NCBI GenBank assembly: GCA_900120395.1
Contig: LT635553.1
Coordinates: 850,254 to 914,253 of the forward strand
Direction: 5' to 3'
Length of the DNA stretch: 64,000 bases
DNA from: Porphyromonadaceae bacterium FC4
GTDB taxonomy: Bacteria; Bacteroidota; Bacteroidia; Bacteroidales; Porphyromonadaceae
The translations under genes and the position numbers were made by a program. Positions 24,445-35,084 of the stretch are shown one piece after another. The notes below the pieces were generated by a model. It did no database searches. It saw only the letters and a list, made by a program, of their open reading frames with translations, and was not told the DNA's origin. Within the stretch, counting starts at the first letter, position 1; every line of letters starts with the position of its first letter.

Positions 24445-24834
24445 CCTTTGTATTTACAACCGATTATTACTCAATATTTTATAGATAATAAGTCAGAAAT
24501 ATGGTTGTTATTTTTAATTGCACATTCTAAAAGGTGAAGACTTAACGCTTTTATTGATTATTAACTCAAAAAGGACATCAACTTGGGTCGTTTCTTCTCT
24601 TTTCCTTGCTATTCGTTTCCGATATTCCACTTTTGTTTTGGTCTATCTCATATGTACTGCAAAGGTATTGATTTTTGTTTGATATTGCTCCTTGCTTGCT
24701 CCTTGTCGTAGATTAATTTTCACACAGGAATTTTTGTTCTCTTTCTATAGGGGCTTGAAACAATCCATTTATTGGAAACAATTAAAGACGGAGCTGGTTT
24801 GCCCCAGTGCTTTTTAAGAAACAGGGCAATTATT
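24445..24834. other. Left end of the element, non-coding and AT-rich
   Basis: No gene seen. Contains the left inverted repeat (24447-24461) and a minus-strand TACCTTTG (24660-24667) with no clear -33 box, which would point outward towards the severed LRR fragment. Confidence 0.5.
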
Positions 24835-29173: not shown

Positions 29174-30280
29174 TTAGTCCGTTTTTGATGGTTGATTGTC
29201 GGCTGTCCCATCCTGTCCCATTGTCCCACACTCTAAGGGTTGGGACAGTGGGACACTTGGGACACCTGCGTTTTTACTCTCTTTGCTGCGCTGGATGATA
29301 CGGTTTACGGTGGACTTGCCACAATTCACCTGTGAGGCTATCTCCCTGACGGACTTGCCCGATTGGGAGAGTTGCAGAATTTGGCAATCCCTTTGGCTTG
29401 ATTCATTGTCGCCCAATTTTTTCAAGTGTTCCTTTTCCGTGGAATAGCCCCTGAACACGAACTGCAAGAAAGCATCCACCTTGTCAATCTCGTAAACGAT
29501 TACATTATCCGCATCATGAGAGAACGTGCCATAGCGCACTTTAAGCTGCTTCACATAGCGAAGCCCTCCGTCTTGGGCACTTTTTCCAATGGTGAACACG
29601 CTGTCAAAGAAATTGTAGAGCCGTTTGCTTCCGGCAAGGTCGTTGGATGTGATGGGACAATCCAAAGAGCGTTTGGGCGTATGTGCTAGGACAAGGATAG
29701 AGAGCGCATATCTCTTTTTGAGATTGTTCAGCTGAATCATCAGCCGTCCTGCGGCATCGCCTTTCTCCATGGCGCAACACAGGTAGGTAAGATTGTCAAT
29801 GATGAAAATCTTGCAGTCGGTCTGCACAGCCATCTGTTCAATGCCGCCTATGATAGCTTCCTCAAAGTTGGCATCCAAAAGCTGGTTGCAGTCAATAGAC
29901 ACCCGATAGAGTTTGTCGGGAAAGGTGTAGAGCTCTCCATGCTCGTTGGTATAGCGGAGCTGGAACTGCTTTTCGGACAGTTCAAAGTCCAGATACAGCA
30001 CATTGTCGGTTCGGGCGATGCGGTCGGCTATCTGCACGGCAAGGATGGACTTGCCCACGTTGGAATCGGCAAACAAGCAGGAGAGTTCCCCCTCGTACCA
30101 AAAGCTGTCCCACAGCGCACGGGGCGTAGGCAATAACGATGCTTCAAGAATGGTTTGGTTTGCCGTCTTGATATTCATCATGCCTACACTGTCGGGCATA
30201 CCGTTATGCGCTTGGGATGCTTTTGTGAGGTCGCCACGTATCAGGTTGATATAGTTCTTATCCTCTTCCATATCATTCAC
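29174..30280 (-). CDS. RecA/RepA-like ATPase (helicase family) with C-terminal HTH
   Basis: 368 aa. Walker A is FADSNVGKSILAVQIADRI and Walker B KIFIIDNLTYLCC; the RepA-type follow-up LSILVLAHTPKRS is present. This is the fold of hexameric plasmid helicases and KaiC-like ATPases. The C terminus carries an HTH that looks like a resolvase-type domain (SGKSVREIASQVNCGKSTV), so the protein may also bind DNA at an origin. It overlaps the preceding excisionase-like gene by 4 nt. Role in element replication or mobilization is inferred. Confidence 0.75.
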   Translation of the reverse strand: MNDMEEDKNYINLIRGDLTKASQAHNGMPDSVGMMNIKTANQTILEASLLPTPRALWDSFWYEGELSCLFADSNVGKSILAVQIADRIARTDNVLYLDFELSEKQFQLRYTNEHGELYTFPDKLYRVSIDCNQLLDANFEEAIIGGIEQMAVQTDCKIFIIDNLTYLCCAMEKGDAAGRLMIQLNNLKKRYALSILVLAHTPKRSLDCPITSNDLAGSKRLYNFFDSVFTIGKSAQDGGLRYVKQLKVRYGTFSHDADNVIVYEIDKVDAFLQFVFRGYSTEKEHLKKLGDNESSQRDCQILQLSQSGKSVREIASQVNCGKSTVNRIIQRSKESKNAGVPSVPLSQPLECGTMGQDGTADNQPSKTD

Positions 30281-30651
30281 CAGTTACGTGGGTTGGGCTT
30301 GCGACGGTGGGAAGAGGATAAGGACTTGTTCAGTTCCTCGTCTGACAACGGTATGGGATTCTTTCGGGCGGTTTCCAGCCACTTGTCCAGTTCGTCACGG
30401 TAAAGGCAATAGCGTTTGCCGGGCTTGGTGGCAGGGATTGTCCCTTCTGACAGTTTCATGTAGAGCGTACCCTTAGGGATACCTAAATACTCTGCTGCCT
30501 CGTCCACAGACATGGGCACGTGGGTGTCCACCGTTTTGGCATTGTTCACACTGCGCTGCTCGGCGAGCAGGCTTTTCAGGCTCATCACTTCGTCTCGAAG
30601 CTGAGCGACAACCTCGGGGAGGTCGTTGAAGGTAAGAATTGATTTTTCCAT
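30277..30651 (-). CDS. Excisionase-like winged-HTH protein
   Basis: 124 aa from ATG 30651 (MEKSILTFNDLPEVVAQLRD). An earlier ATG at 30720 is rejected because it falls inside a 48-bp operator/promoter module. A short coiled coil leads into an HTH_17/Xis-type domain: MSVDEAAEYLGIPKGTLYM, then GTIPATKPGKRY and YRDELDKWLE. Such proteins regulate excision or act as small repressors. First gene of the ATPase-primase-relaxase operon. Confidence 0.75.
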   Translation of the reverse strand: MEKSILTFNDLPEVVAQLRDEVMSLKSLLAEQRSVNNAKTVDTHVPMSVDEAAEYLGIPKGTLYMKLSEGTIPATKPGKRYCLYRDELDKWLETARKNPIPLSDEELNKSLSSSHRRKPNPRNW

Positions 30652-30683
30652 TCGCGTACTCGTCTCTTTTGTAAGACTTGGCG

Positions 30684-30731
30684 CAAAGGACTGAAATGAT
30701 ATATCCGTGAATATCTCCACGACACGTCATT
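30684..30731 (-). promoter_or_regulatory. 48-bp operator/promoter module, copy 1
   Basis: Aligns without gaps to 33133-33180 with about 38 of 48 identities. On the minus strand it runs from AATGACGTGTCGTGGAG through TATTCACGGATAT to TCCTTTG, the latter a near -7 box. CGTG and CACG form a short inverted repeat. Confidence 0.7.
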
Positions 30732-30850
30732 GCAAAATAATTCCCGAATAATTAAGCCCAGCCATAAATGACGGGTAAAATTACTCGGGAAACGATGTAA
30801 AACAGGCGGTTATGAGTTACCGGATGGTTGTCGTTGGTGTCGTGATTATC

Positions 30851-31955: not shown

Positions 31956-33074
31956 TTATGCCTCCTTGCGCTTCAAGGTTATCTTGTCCACCACCTGACA
32001 CATCTGCTGCGCTGCTATCTTGGAATAGATTTGTGTGGTGGTAATGTTCTTATGTCCGAGATAGGCTTGGATGACAGCCATGTCCGTTCCCATTTCCACG
32101 TGCAGGCTTCCGAAGCTGTGGCGGGTACAGTGAAAGGTGATTTTCTTGGTTATCCCTGCTGCCGTGAGCCACCGTTGGAGTGGTCCTTGCAGCATCTTGT
32201 CCTTGAAATCCTCAAAGATAAGTCCCTCGCCCCGTTCTCCCAGCAGTCCATAGGCTTCATCACTGATGGGGTTATGCACTATTTCTTTGCTTTTCTGCAT
32301 ACGGGTGGTAACGAACATCCTGCCGTTGGTGTATGGTTGTATCTGCTGCCACGTGAGCTGTCTGATGTCGCTCTTTCTCAGTCCCGTAAGACAGGCGAAA
32401 AGAAAAGCTTTTTTCAAGACCTCCTCCTCACAGGGTGTTTCGGCAAGCCGTATCAGTTCCTCTTGGCTCAAATGCTCCCTGATGGTGGGAATGCACTCGA
32501 TGCGGTCTAAGAAGCCGTTTGGGTTCTCCTTTATCTTCCTGTCACGGTAAGCGGTGTGCAGCACGGCACGGAAAGTTGACCAATAGCCTGCTGCGGAGTT
32601 GATGTGCAGCTTTTGGTTGGTGTGGATGGATTGGGGTGCATCAAGCAGGTATTCCATGAACTTGCGGCACAAATCCACATCCACCTCCTCAAAGGTGCAT
32701 TTGCCGTTCACGAACCGCTGGAAATGCTTGTATACGTGCTGCCACTTGATATTCTTGCGGTCAGCCAGTCCTTTGAAATAGGCAAGGAAATCGCCCTTCA
32801 TCTTGGTCTTGTCAAAAAAGCCGTTGTTTTCATTGAAAATGGCTTCGTAGCGCTGGTTGCGCAGGATGACCGCTTTCTTCATCATGCGTGCGTTGAAGTC
32901 CCGTTCCTGCTGGTTTGCAGGTTTGGCGAAGATGTAAATTCCTAAGGCTTCACGTGTAATCACTCTCATGGTGACATTGTCACGGTAGCCGGGATAGTAG
33001 TCAAGGCATAGTGAATACTGTGTCCCGTTCTTAATCTTGCGCTTACGCAAGGTAACTGTTTTGCATTTACTCAT
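31956..33074 (-). CDS. int: Tyrosine recombinase (integrase) of the element
   Basis: 372 aa. An N-terminal arm-binding type domain and SAM-like core-binding region precede the catalytic domain, which has the first Arg in LTGLRKSDIRQLTW, the H-x-x-R box in FHCTRHSFGSLHVEMG, the later His in AYLGHKNITTTQ and the nucleophile Tyr in QIYSKIA. It catalyses integration and excision. Related to the integrases of Bacteroides mobilizable and conjugative transposons. Preceded by copy 2 of the 48-bp operator module. Confidence 0.92.
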   Translation of the reverse strand: MSKCKTVTLRKRKIKNGTQYSLCLDYYPGYRDNVTMRVITREALGIYIFAKPANQQERDFNARMMKKAVILRNQRYEAIFNENNGFFDKTKMKGDFLAYFKGLADRKNIKWQHVYKHFQRFVNGKCTFEEVDVDLCRKFMEYLLDAPQSIHTNQKLHINSAAGYWSTFRAVLHTAYRDRKIKENPNGFLDRIECIPTIREHLSQEELIRLAETPCEEEVLKKAFLFACLTGLRKSDIRQLTWQQIQPYTNGRMFVTTRMQKSKEIVHNPISDEAYGLLGERGEGLIFEDFKDKMLQGPLQRWLTAAGITKKITFHCTRHSFGSLHVEMGTDMAVIQAYLGHKNITTTQIYSKIAAQQMCQVVDKITLKRKEA

Positions 33075-33132
33075 AATAATTATGTTTTAATTGGTTGTAT
33101 ACATTTTGGAGTTGTATCCATGTTTCCGATGG

Positions 33133-33180
33133 CAAAGGAACAACGTGAAATATCCGTGAATACCTCCACGATACATCATT
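33133..33180 (-). promoter_or_regulatory. int: 48-bp operator/promoter module, copy 2
   Basis: Same module as at 30684-30731, about 60-105 nt before the integrase ATG. On the minus strand TCGTGGAGGTATTCACGG is followed by ATATTTCA and, further on, TTCCTTTG. Confidence 0.7.
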
Positions 33181-33215
33181 TTGAAATAATTTTCGATAAT
33201 CCCGATTTTTCACGG

Positions 33216-34151
33216 TTATTTGTTCCTTTCAGCCATGACACGCTCCACATCTGAGCGCAAAAGCAGGTTTTTCACACCCACCTTTATCTTTTCGATGTGC
33301 TTCACCTTGACGATATGGCAGATGTTGGCTGACGAAAGACCATAGATTTGCTGCACCTGCTCAACGGTATAGTAGCGTTCATCGTTCACAAGGTCAGTTC
33401 TGCGGAGTTCGTTCAAATGTGATTTGGAGTAATAGGTACGCCCGTACTCTCTTTTAGTGGGTATCTTATGGCGATAGGTGTAGGCACGGAGTGCGGTCGG
33501 CTTCATGCCGAACAGTTCCTCCACCTCCTCGGTCAGTAGCCAGTCGGTAATTTCGCTAATATCAACTGCCACACCGAAAAACTCGTCAATATGCTTCTTG
33601 CTGTAATAGTTCTTTCCTGCGATACGGCAGATGGGGATATGGTTACGCTTGGCGGAAGTGTAAAGCCATGACTGCTTTACCTTAAAAAGGGACATCACCT
33701 CCTCGCCCGAATAGAAGTCCAACACTTCTTCGCTTTCCTTTTCCCTTTTTTCTCTTTTGGCAGGTAAGGAAGATGAAGATGATTTCCTTGGTGTGGAGGT
33801 GTTGCCGGGCAGGATGCGGTGATAGGGATTGCCCTCCAACATCTGCTCGATGTCGGCTCTGCGGATGAATGCCATGCGGTTGCTGATGCGTGAGGCTTTC
33901 AGCTTGCCGATGGCTACAAGTTTGTAAATGTACTGTCGGGAACAGCCCATGAGGATGGCTGCTTTGGAAAAGGTGAGATACTCCTGATGCTGTATCTCCA
34001 TCAAGGGTTGGGCGACTTTGAAGAGGTTGTTCTTCTGCATCACTCTGGCTCGTTTGGCTTCTGCCTGACAAGCCTCACTGCAATATCTTTGCATACCGCT
34101 TCGGGTTACAAAGGACTTGCCGCAAAAACTGCATTTTCTGGTTGCTTTCAT
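33216..34151 (-). CDS. Zinc-finger protein with four winged-HTH (HTH_17-type) domains
   Basis: 311 aa. The first 30 residues form a C4 finger (CSFCGKSF and YCSEACQ). Four excisionase-like HTH units follow at about 55-105 (FSKAAILMGCSRQYIYKLV), 147-195 (VMSLFKVKQSWLYTSAKR), 205-250 (EEVEELFGMKPTALRAYTY) and 258-308 (VEQVQQIYGLSSANICHIV). Each has the strand pair typical of MerR/Xis winged helices. This equals the place of the targeting protein TnpA in Tn4555, and it may direct integrase to target sites (inference). Two modules of three 10-bp steps lie upstream between the gene and the element end. Confidence 0.75.
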   Translation of the reverse strand: MKATRKCSFCGKSFVTRSGMQRYCSEACQAEAKRARVMQKNNLFKVAQPLMEIQHQEYLTFSKAAILMGCSRQYIYKLVAIGKLKASRISNRMAFIRRADIEQMLEGNPYHRILPGNTSTPRKSSSSSLPAKREKREKESEEVLDFYSGEEVMSLFKVKQSWLYTSAKRNHIPICRIAGKNYYSKKHIDEFFGVAVDISEITDWLLTEEVEELFGMKPTALRAYTYRHKIPTKREYGRTYYSKSHLNELRRTDLVNDERYYTVEQVQQIYGLSSANICHIVKVKHIEKIKVGVKNLLLRSDVERVMAERNK

Positions 34152-34202: not shown

Positions 34203-34232
34203 GTAAACGGATGTGAACGGAAGTCAACCATT
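34203..34232. repeat. 10-bp step repeat, module 1
   Basis: GTAAACGGAT, GTGAACGGAA and GTCAACCATT follow directly in register, then GTCGC. A CACAGTGTGAC segment lies 25 nt further on. Probably a multi-site protein-binding array. Confidence 0.65.
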
Positions 34233-34291
34233 GTCGCTTTTCTACACAGTGTGACTGTTTCCGCATATCGGGGCGGTTATTGTCGCTTGTC

Positions 34292-34321
34292 GTAAACGGT
34301 TGTAAACCCTTGTCAACTGTC
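34292..34321. repeat. 10-bp step repeat, module 2
   Basis: GTAAACGGTT, GTAAACCCTT and GTCAACTGTC in register, followed by CACGGTGTGAC as in module 1. Lies about 190 bp from the element's right end. Confidence 0.65.
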
Positions 34322-34495
34322 TGCACGGTGTGACAAAAAACAAGCCCCGCAAATTCTCCACGTCAGAAATACGTCTCAAAAATATGTGGAAATTTGGGAA
34401 GCGACAAATGGCAACCGAAAAGTGTTAAATTTTAGAATATGCTGGTAATTAAAGATTTACACTCGGATATTTCTGATTAGTTTTGGTTGTTCTAT

Positions 34496-34509
34496 GGTTA
34501 TAAATACAA
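34496..34509. repeat. Right terminal inverted repeat and junction
   Basis: GGTTATAAATACAA mirrors the left end, which reads GGTTGTAAATACAA on the minus strand (24448-24461). The final ACAA (34506-34509) is the 4-bp sequence also present at 24441-24444. Confidence 0.75.
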
Positions 34510-35084
34510 GAGTAGAAAGCATAATTGCCTATTGAGGTGACGCTCTCCGGGATCACCACGGAAGTGAGATTATAGCAACCGGAAAAAGCACTATTCGGAA
34601 TCGCCTTAAGTGAGGTAAAGTGCTGCAGTTCATCAAAGCTTTTGATGTTGACACTGTTTTGGAACAGAGTACCCAGATCGGTCACACGGGAAGCCTCGGC
34701 ATAGGGGATCTCGCCATCTTTGCCGTTCACTCCGTCTTTGCCGTTCACTCCGTCTTTGCCATTGAGTCCGTCCTTACCGTCACGGATGGTCACTGAGGCG
34801 CTCTTGGCAAAAGCGAGGATGTAGCCAACCTGCTTACCGCCCTCCATCAGAGGGGTGACGGAGGTGACGTAGTCGTTGTTTTGTAGCGCGGTCACCACGC
34901 CCTGGAGGGAGGTGAGCTGCTGATTGAAGCGGTTGCAGAGCTCCTCGAGCTTCTTGACCCGTGTCTCAATGCCGTCGACGCGCTTATTGAGCGGCCCATC
35001 GTCGTAGGGGCGGGTACAGCTGCTGTAGATACCGCAGAGCAGTAGAGCTACGATCAAAAGTTGTCTTTTCATGTTGTCAAGCAT
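34506..35084 (-). pseudogene. 5' half of the BspA-like LRR lipoprotein gene
   Basis: 193 codons up to the junction. A lipoprotein signal (MKRQLLIVALLLCGIYSSC; a second ATG at 35072 is the likelier start) precedes a coiled-coil stretch (RVDGIETRVKKLEELCNRF) and a collagen-like run of GKDG units, as in the DUF4988-type N terminus of Bacteroidales surface proteins. One or two LRR units follow, ending GNYAFYSC. After the junction the frame reads 18 codons of element DNA (IYNHRTTKTNQKYPSVNL) to a stop at 34449. With 23598-24440 it reconstructs a 473-aa surface protein. The truncated product could still be made and lipidated. Confidence 0.9.

Follow-up and report, generated by a model that had tools for sequence, protein, structure and literature searches.

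Two tandem arrays of 10-bp steps at the right end of a Tn4555 copy are probably binding sites for the element's own TnpA, a reading to which we give a probability of roughly 0.75. Sequence comparison suggests that each step is read by HTH1, the first of four HTH domains, of one TnpA molecule, with about four molecules per array forming a filament beside putative arm-type integrase sites. The most interesting new point is that the head of TnpA and its array are exchanged together between otherwise near-identical elements. From this comparison TnpA gains a concrete candidate DNA site and a named reading domain, distinct from those in which target choice may reside.

The window, i.e. the whole stretch of 64,000 nucleotides that was analysed, carries a full Tn4555 copy with cfxA that is 99.9% identical over 10 kb to CP103138 (circular, 10,057 bp) and to the plasmid copy NZ_CP103154. 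Near-identical sequence and the gene set tnpA, int, tnpC, xis, a mobilization gene and cfxA identify it as this cfxA integrative mobilizable element; the order tnpA-int-tnpC-xis is that of Tn4555, and the genes are annotated TnpA and TnpC in matching copies. The mapped left end is GTATTTACAACC (24450..24461, + strand) and the right end, an imperfect inverted repeat of it, is GGTTATAAATAC (34496..34507, + strand). Identical 6-7 bp flank both sides of three Tn4555 copies (L009, L018 and L022), which is consistent with Tn916-like coupling sequences, and the flanks of other copies differ. By its spread Tn4555 carries the cfxA beta-lactamase into Bacteroidia of the mouth and gut.

The gene next to the arrays, tnpA (33216..34151, - strand), encodes 311 aa, and PLSDB has its counterpart as TnpA of Tn4555 in a sequence that matches this region at 100% identity. 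The zinc finger and four HTH units that had been read from the sequence alone are both present: a CxxC..CxxxC finger is visible in residues 1-35 (34047..34151, - strand) and Pfam finds four HTH_17 stretches, corresponding to four winged HTH domains. HTH1, the putative step reader, occupies residues 56-106 (33834..33986, - strand), and HTH2, HTH3 and HTH4, which do not covary with the steps, lie within residues 145-305 (33237..33719, - strand). HTH1 is Xis-like: the excisionase model TIGR01764 scores above its cut-off at residues 58-105, and there is a weak sequence match to Pukovnik Xis (4J2N) over residues 62-105 (E=0.2). A predicted model of TnpA, of modest confidence (pLDDT 71, pTM 0.29), gave Foldseek matches to Pukovnik Xis (1.2 A, TM 0.8), BldC on DNA and RdfS, all at the level of single domains with the aligned HTH unspecified; UFL1-type HTH repeats, which ranked top for the whole model, were dismissed as unrelated. 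The same protein from the same element is the TnpA of Tribble 1999 as cited in a review (PMC5704250), and by that review's account deletion of tnpA renders Tn4555 insertion essentially random, with target preference lost. Neither step arrays nor HTH1 specificity is described in the later Tn4555 literature that was searched, and a prior report in the original papers is possible.

The arrays are upstream of the tnpA start, the gene being read from the minus strand. Array 1 (34203..34242, + strand) consists of GTAAACGGAT, GTGAACGGAA, GTCAACCATT and a degenerate fourth step, GTCGCTTTTC, and is followed by box 1, TACACAGTGTGAC (34243..34255, + strand). Array 2 (34282..34321, + strand) begins with a degenerate step, GTCGCTTGTC, continues with GTAAACGGTT, GTAAACCCTT and GTCAACTGTC, and is followed by box 2, TGCACGGTGTGAC (34322..34334, + strand). 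The strong steps start at 34203, 34213 and 34223 in array 1 and at 34292, 34302 and 34312 in array 2, both in exact 10-bp register, so the two sets of three steps described in the sequence-only reading are where it put them, as are the GTGTGAC segments behind both. Its 89-bp spacing holds between the strong triplets but not for the full repeat, which is 53 bp long, has four steps followed by a CACRGTGTGAC box (34203-34255 and 34282-34334) and recurs at 79 bp, shifted by one step. The fourth step of array 1 is GTCAAC in the relatives at 70% identity. Chance does not account for the arrays, since GTVAAC triples at 10-bp spacing occur twice in the window and never in 200 first-order Markov shuffles; pairs at this spacing number four against a shuffle mean of 0.08. 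When the step matrix was run over the 64 kb, lag 10 was the sole short lag with several pairs, and all four pairs are in these arrays. A search of Rfam gave no match for the region, the step matrix found no array at the Tn4555 left end, and no tandem steps were found in the flanks of insertion targets.

About 40 related elements were compared. Loss of the steps in relatives had been named beforehand as grounds for abandoning the proposal; instead, they are kept in TnpA relatives down to 58% identity, and conservation across 18 sequences is 96% in the G, T, A, A and C columns of the six strong steps versus 77% in the other columns (Mann-Whitney P=8e-7). Relatives at 24-36% identity adjoin related integrases, upstream of them and many at the mnmE 3' end. 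Almost every one of them carries 4-5 steps in the equivalent position, directly ahead of the tnpA-like gene, but the step sequences are different (GTACCA, GTAAAA, GTCTCA, GTGCAA and more). The steps are weak in L132, L133 and L173, and L181 was left out of step scoring, its contig ending at the array place. In 393 Bacteroidales genomes most tandem triples adjoin TnpA relatives, the other matches being contig ends, simple 10-bp repeats (some matches were dismissed as microsatellites) and one orphan array. A reversed control pattern gave a similarly low background in most of these genomes, with 16 matches in a single genome, G197. The orphan, a four-step array in genome G333 (L127:7738-7787), lies at the mnmE 3' end and adjoins a methylase-type defence island; neither TnpA nor an integrase was found in G333, and the array is probably a remnant or the product of an assembly gap. 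As a counterexample of an array without TnpA it is undecisive, the integrase being missing too. More generally, many Bacteroidia islands that encode a zinc-finger HTH protein and an integrase are inserted at the mnmE 3' end (L132, L173, L174, L178, L179, L206, L211 and L222), and the SGI1 elements of Gammaproteobacteria insert at the same gene, trmE (PMC8409611).

Natural swaps among these elements separate the parts of TnpA. L131, L136 and L137 share integrases at 96-98% identity, arm domains at 100%, Xis at 94-98% and HTH2-4 at 92-100%; their HTH1 domains are only 30-36% identical and their steps are GTCAAC, GTAAAA and GTACCA, respectively. Likewise, L186, L189 and L191 have integrases 96-97% identical, HTH1 28-42% identical and steps GTWCCA, GTAAAA and TTCAAC. 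Between L131 and L137 the edge of the array (8577|8578) is the exact point at which DNA similarity ends, and it returns at TnpA residue 133, just before HTH2. The reverse case is given by the pairs L131/L191 and L136/L189, in which the integrases are 71-74% and box plus core 37-43% alike, yet HTH1 is 65-74% and the steps are 75-78% alike. In a partial Mantel test of 21 elements, with P values that are approximate as the elements are related, HTH1 was correlated with the steps when Int and HTH2+4 were controlled for (r=0.59, P=0.0005), and Int or HTH2+4 given HTH1 was not (r=0.02-0.04, P=0.26-0.38). In addition L178, a single case whose contig ends within int, has a 51% identical integrase beside mnmE with neither a tnpA gene nor a step array. 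On the strength of these swaps, the Mantel test and L178, the steps are assigned, by sequence covariation, to the TnpA N-terminal unit, which agrees with the original view that the arrays go with the neighbouring multi-HTH protein and not with the integrase. Because zinc finger and linker are exchanged along with HTH1, it may be the entire N-terminal unit that reads the steps. In the swap series some ten types of HTH1 pair with some ten step sequences; this natural mutagenesis set could yield a recognition code for Xis-like domains.

The mechanism that we infer, which comprises binding, oligomerisation, stoichiometry, bending, repression and a targeting role, would begin with the Xis-like HTH1 of one TnpA molecule reading each 10-bp step. 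About four molecules would follow one another head to tail along a single face of the DNA, each taking up one helical turn, and the short nucleoprotein filament so formed would occupy the transposon end beside the candidate arm-type sites, as with directionality factors of the Xis class; Tn4555 would have two such arrays in tandem. The filament would bend the transposon end beside these sites. HTH2-4 would not read steps; they probably contact other DNA (box or target) or partners, and could supply the known targeting role of TnpA. Position and analogy make a part in assembly of the recombination complex plausible: the arrays lie 170-300 bp from the mapped right end (~34507) and beside repeats that follow Int, the presumed arm sites.

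The filament would probably also repress tnpA, because the arrays are directly upstream of the gene. That the arrays are operators for TnpA self-repression only, with no part in recombination, is nevertheless improbable. In those relatives that were examined the arrays precede tnpA by 25-180 bp, weak promoter-like matches overlap the steps (a promoter scan gave no excess over shuffles), and related weak steps with a box stand ahead of int and xis, all of which would suit operators; against this, the arrays also have tnpA on one side and the att end on the other, next to the putative arm sites, and proteins of the Xis class often do both jobs, as Apl does (PMC7498355). Self-repression and a recombination filament are in any case not mutually exclusive. 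The leader sequences form a 70-bp direct repeat of 79% identity ahead of both int and xis, each copy with weak steps and a CTCCACGA box. The copy upstream of int (33132..33200, + strand) has its box as CTCCACGATA and repeats the copy upstream of xis (30683..30752, + strand). This shared leader suggests that int and xis are under common control of the same protein.

The sequence-only reading had pictured one repeat protein on the array with one HTH per turn, and this part of it did not stand. That a single TnpA molecule spans the whole array does suit the numbers in Tn4555, where TnpA has four HTHs and each array four steps, but it is contradicted by relatives with a single HTH (117-119 aa; L206, L211, L218, L220 and L222), which carry 4-5 steps. 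Relatives with two HTHs (194-197 aa; L205 and L210) or three (246-254 aa; L130 and L173) also have 4-5, so step number is independent of HTH number. Furthermore, the step sequence is followed by HTH1 alone, and steps are alike within one array, although still variable, whereas a single protein has four dissimilar HTHs. One HTH per step is thus very unlikely, and one TnpA copy per step through HTH1 would be the simplest fit to the sequences.

The arm sites of an integrase can be short direct repeats that lie next to one another, as in lambda P', and the integrase of Tn4555 (31956..33074, - strand) has an N-terminal arm-binding domain (PF17293); with the arrays within 300 bp of the element end, the steps might themselves be taken for arm-type sites. 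This is highly improbable: steps do not follow the arm-binding domain of Int as arm sites should, entirely different steps stand beside arm domains that are 100% identical, Int explains nothing beyond HTH1 in the partial Mantel test, the Int of L178, which lacks TnpA, has no steps, and the step matrix found no array at the left end. Repeats of the GGTACAAA type track Int better. In Tn4555 the direct repeat ACGTCAGAAAT / ACGTCTCAAAAAT (34360..34383, + strand), the counterpart of GGTACAAAT / GGTACAAAAAT in mnmE-inserted relatives, is read as the probable pair of arm-type sites because such repeats follow integrase rather than TnpA. Binding of the steps by the separate Xis of the element (30277..30720, - strand; HTH_17, TIGR01764) is hardly credible. 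This protein does have an HTH_17 domain, and Xis sites are usually one turn apart, but L131, L136 and L137 have completely different steps beside Xis proteins of 94-98% identity.

The preferred reading, of TnpA copies bound one per step through HTH1, has several parallels. TnpA is like the Xis class in its excisionase-like winged HTH (by TIGR01764, HTH_17 and the domain-level fold matches) and in direct-repeat candidate operators one helix turn apart, the step arrays; with 311 aa and four HTHs it departs from the small single-domain form of that class, to which its relatives of 117-119 aa conform, zinc finger aside. Operators of recombination directionality factors (RDFs) are direct repeats one turn apart, presumably with one monomer on each (PMC7498355). 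Apl of phage 186, an HTH protein that is both RDF and repressor, has five direct repeats at att and seven between promoters (PMC7498355), and resembles TnpA in having such operators one helix turn apart; however, Apl is a small RDF, whereas TnpA has a zinc finger and three further HTHs and its element encodes a separate Xis. RdfS of ICEMlSym R7A binds attP as a tetramer over a 40-bp site, on the upstream side of a putative integrase arm site (PMC11963761); the 10 bp per molecule over 40 bp and the domain-level fold match are points of likeness, but RdfS sites have no consensus motif, unlike the TnpA steps, which show a strong pattern that changes when the domain does. The X1-X1.5-X2 filament of lambda Xis has cooperative protomers on adjacent sites beside an integrase arm site (PMC7145599), as supposed for TnpA, although with three protomers of a small protein that has neither fused extra HTHs nor a swapped specificity cassette. 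Weak specificity is a noted trait of the known Xis-type proteins (PMC7498355, PMC11963761).

As a tentative extension, zinc finger and HTH1 with the four-step array might constitute an exchangeable specificity cassette in these Bacteroidia islands, swapped as a unit among elements that share integrase, Xis, HTH2-4 and the mnmE target. Separate addresses would keep related elements stacked at one site from cross-reacting, with HTH2-4 handling target or integrase; we think this possible but doubtful. Two genomes contain co-resident elements with different step types, L185 and L186 in G166, 24 kb apart, and L188 and L189 in G259, 44 kb apart, as would be expected if the arrays prevent cross-reaction.

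The insertion targets of Tn4555 were also inspected. The box (GTCACAC on the other strand) was considered as a link to the target, GTNACRC being present at right-flank position 29-30 in 6 of 17 insertions into leucine-rich-repeat (LRR) genes and in none of 27 others, but was dismissed as a target signal because LRR coding sequence explains it. The literature searched contains no link between Tn4555 and BspA. Judged by translation, 17 of 44 Tn4555-type insertions (TnpA at least 88% identical; flanks L005-L066) are in BspA-like LRR genes, mostly in the same repeat phase and orientation, and a Pfam LRR_5 match was obtained in all ten LRR flanks tested. The Tn4555 copy in the window likewise interrupts a BspA-like LRR gene (34449-35084).
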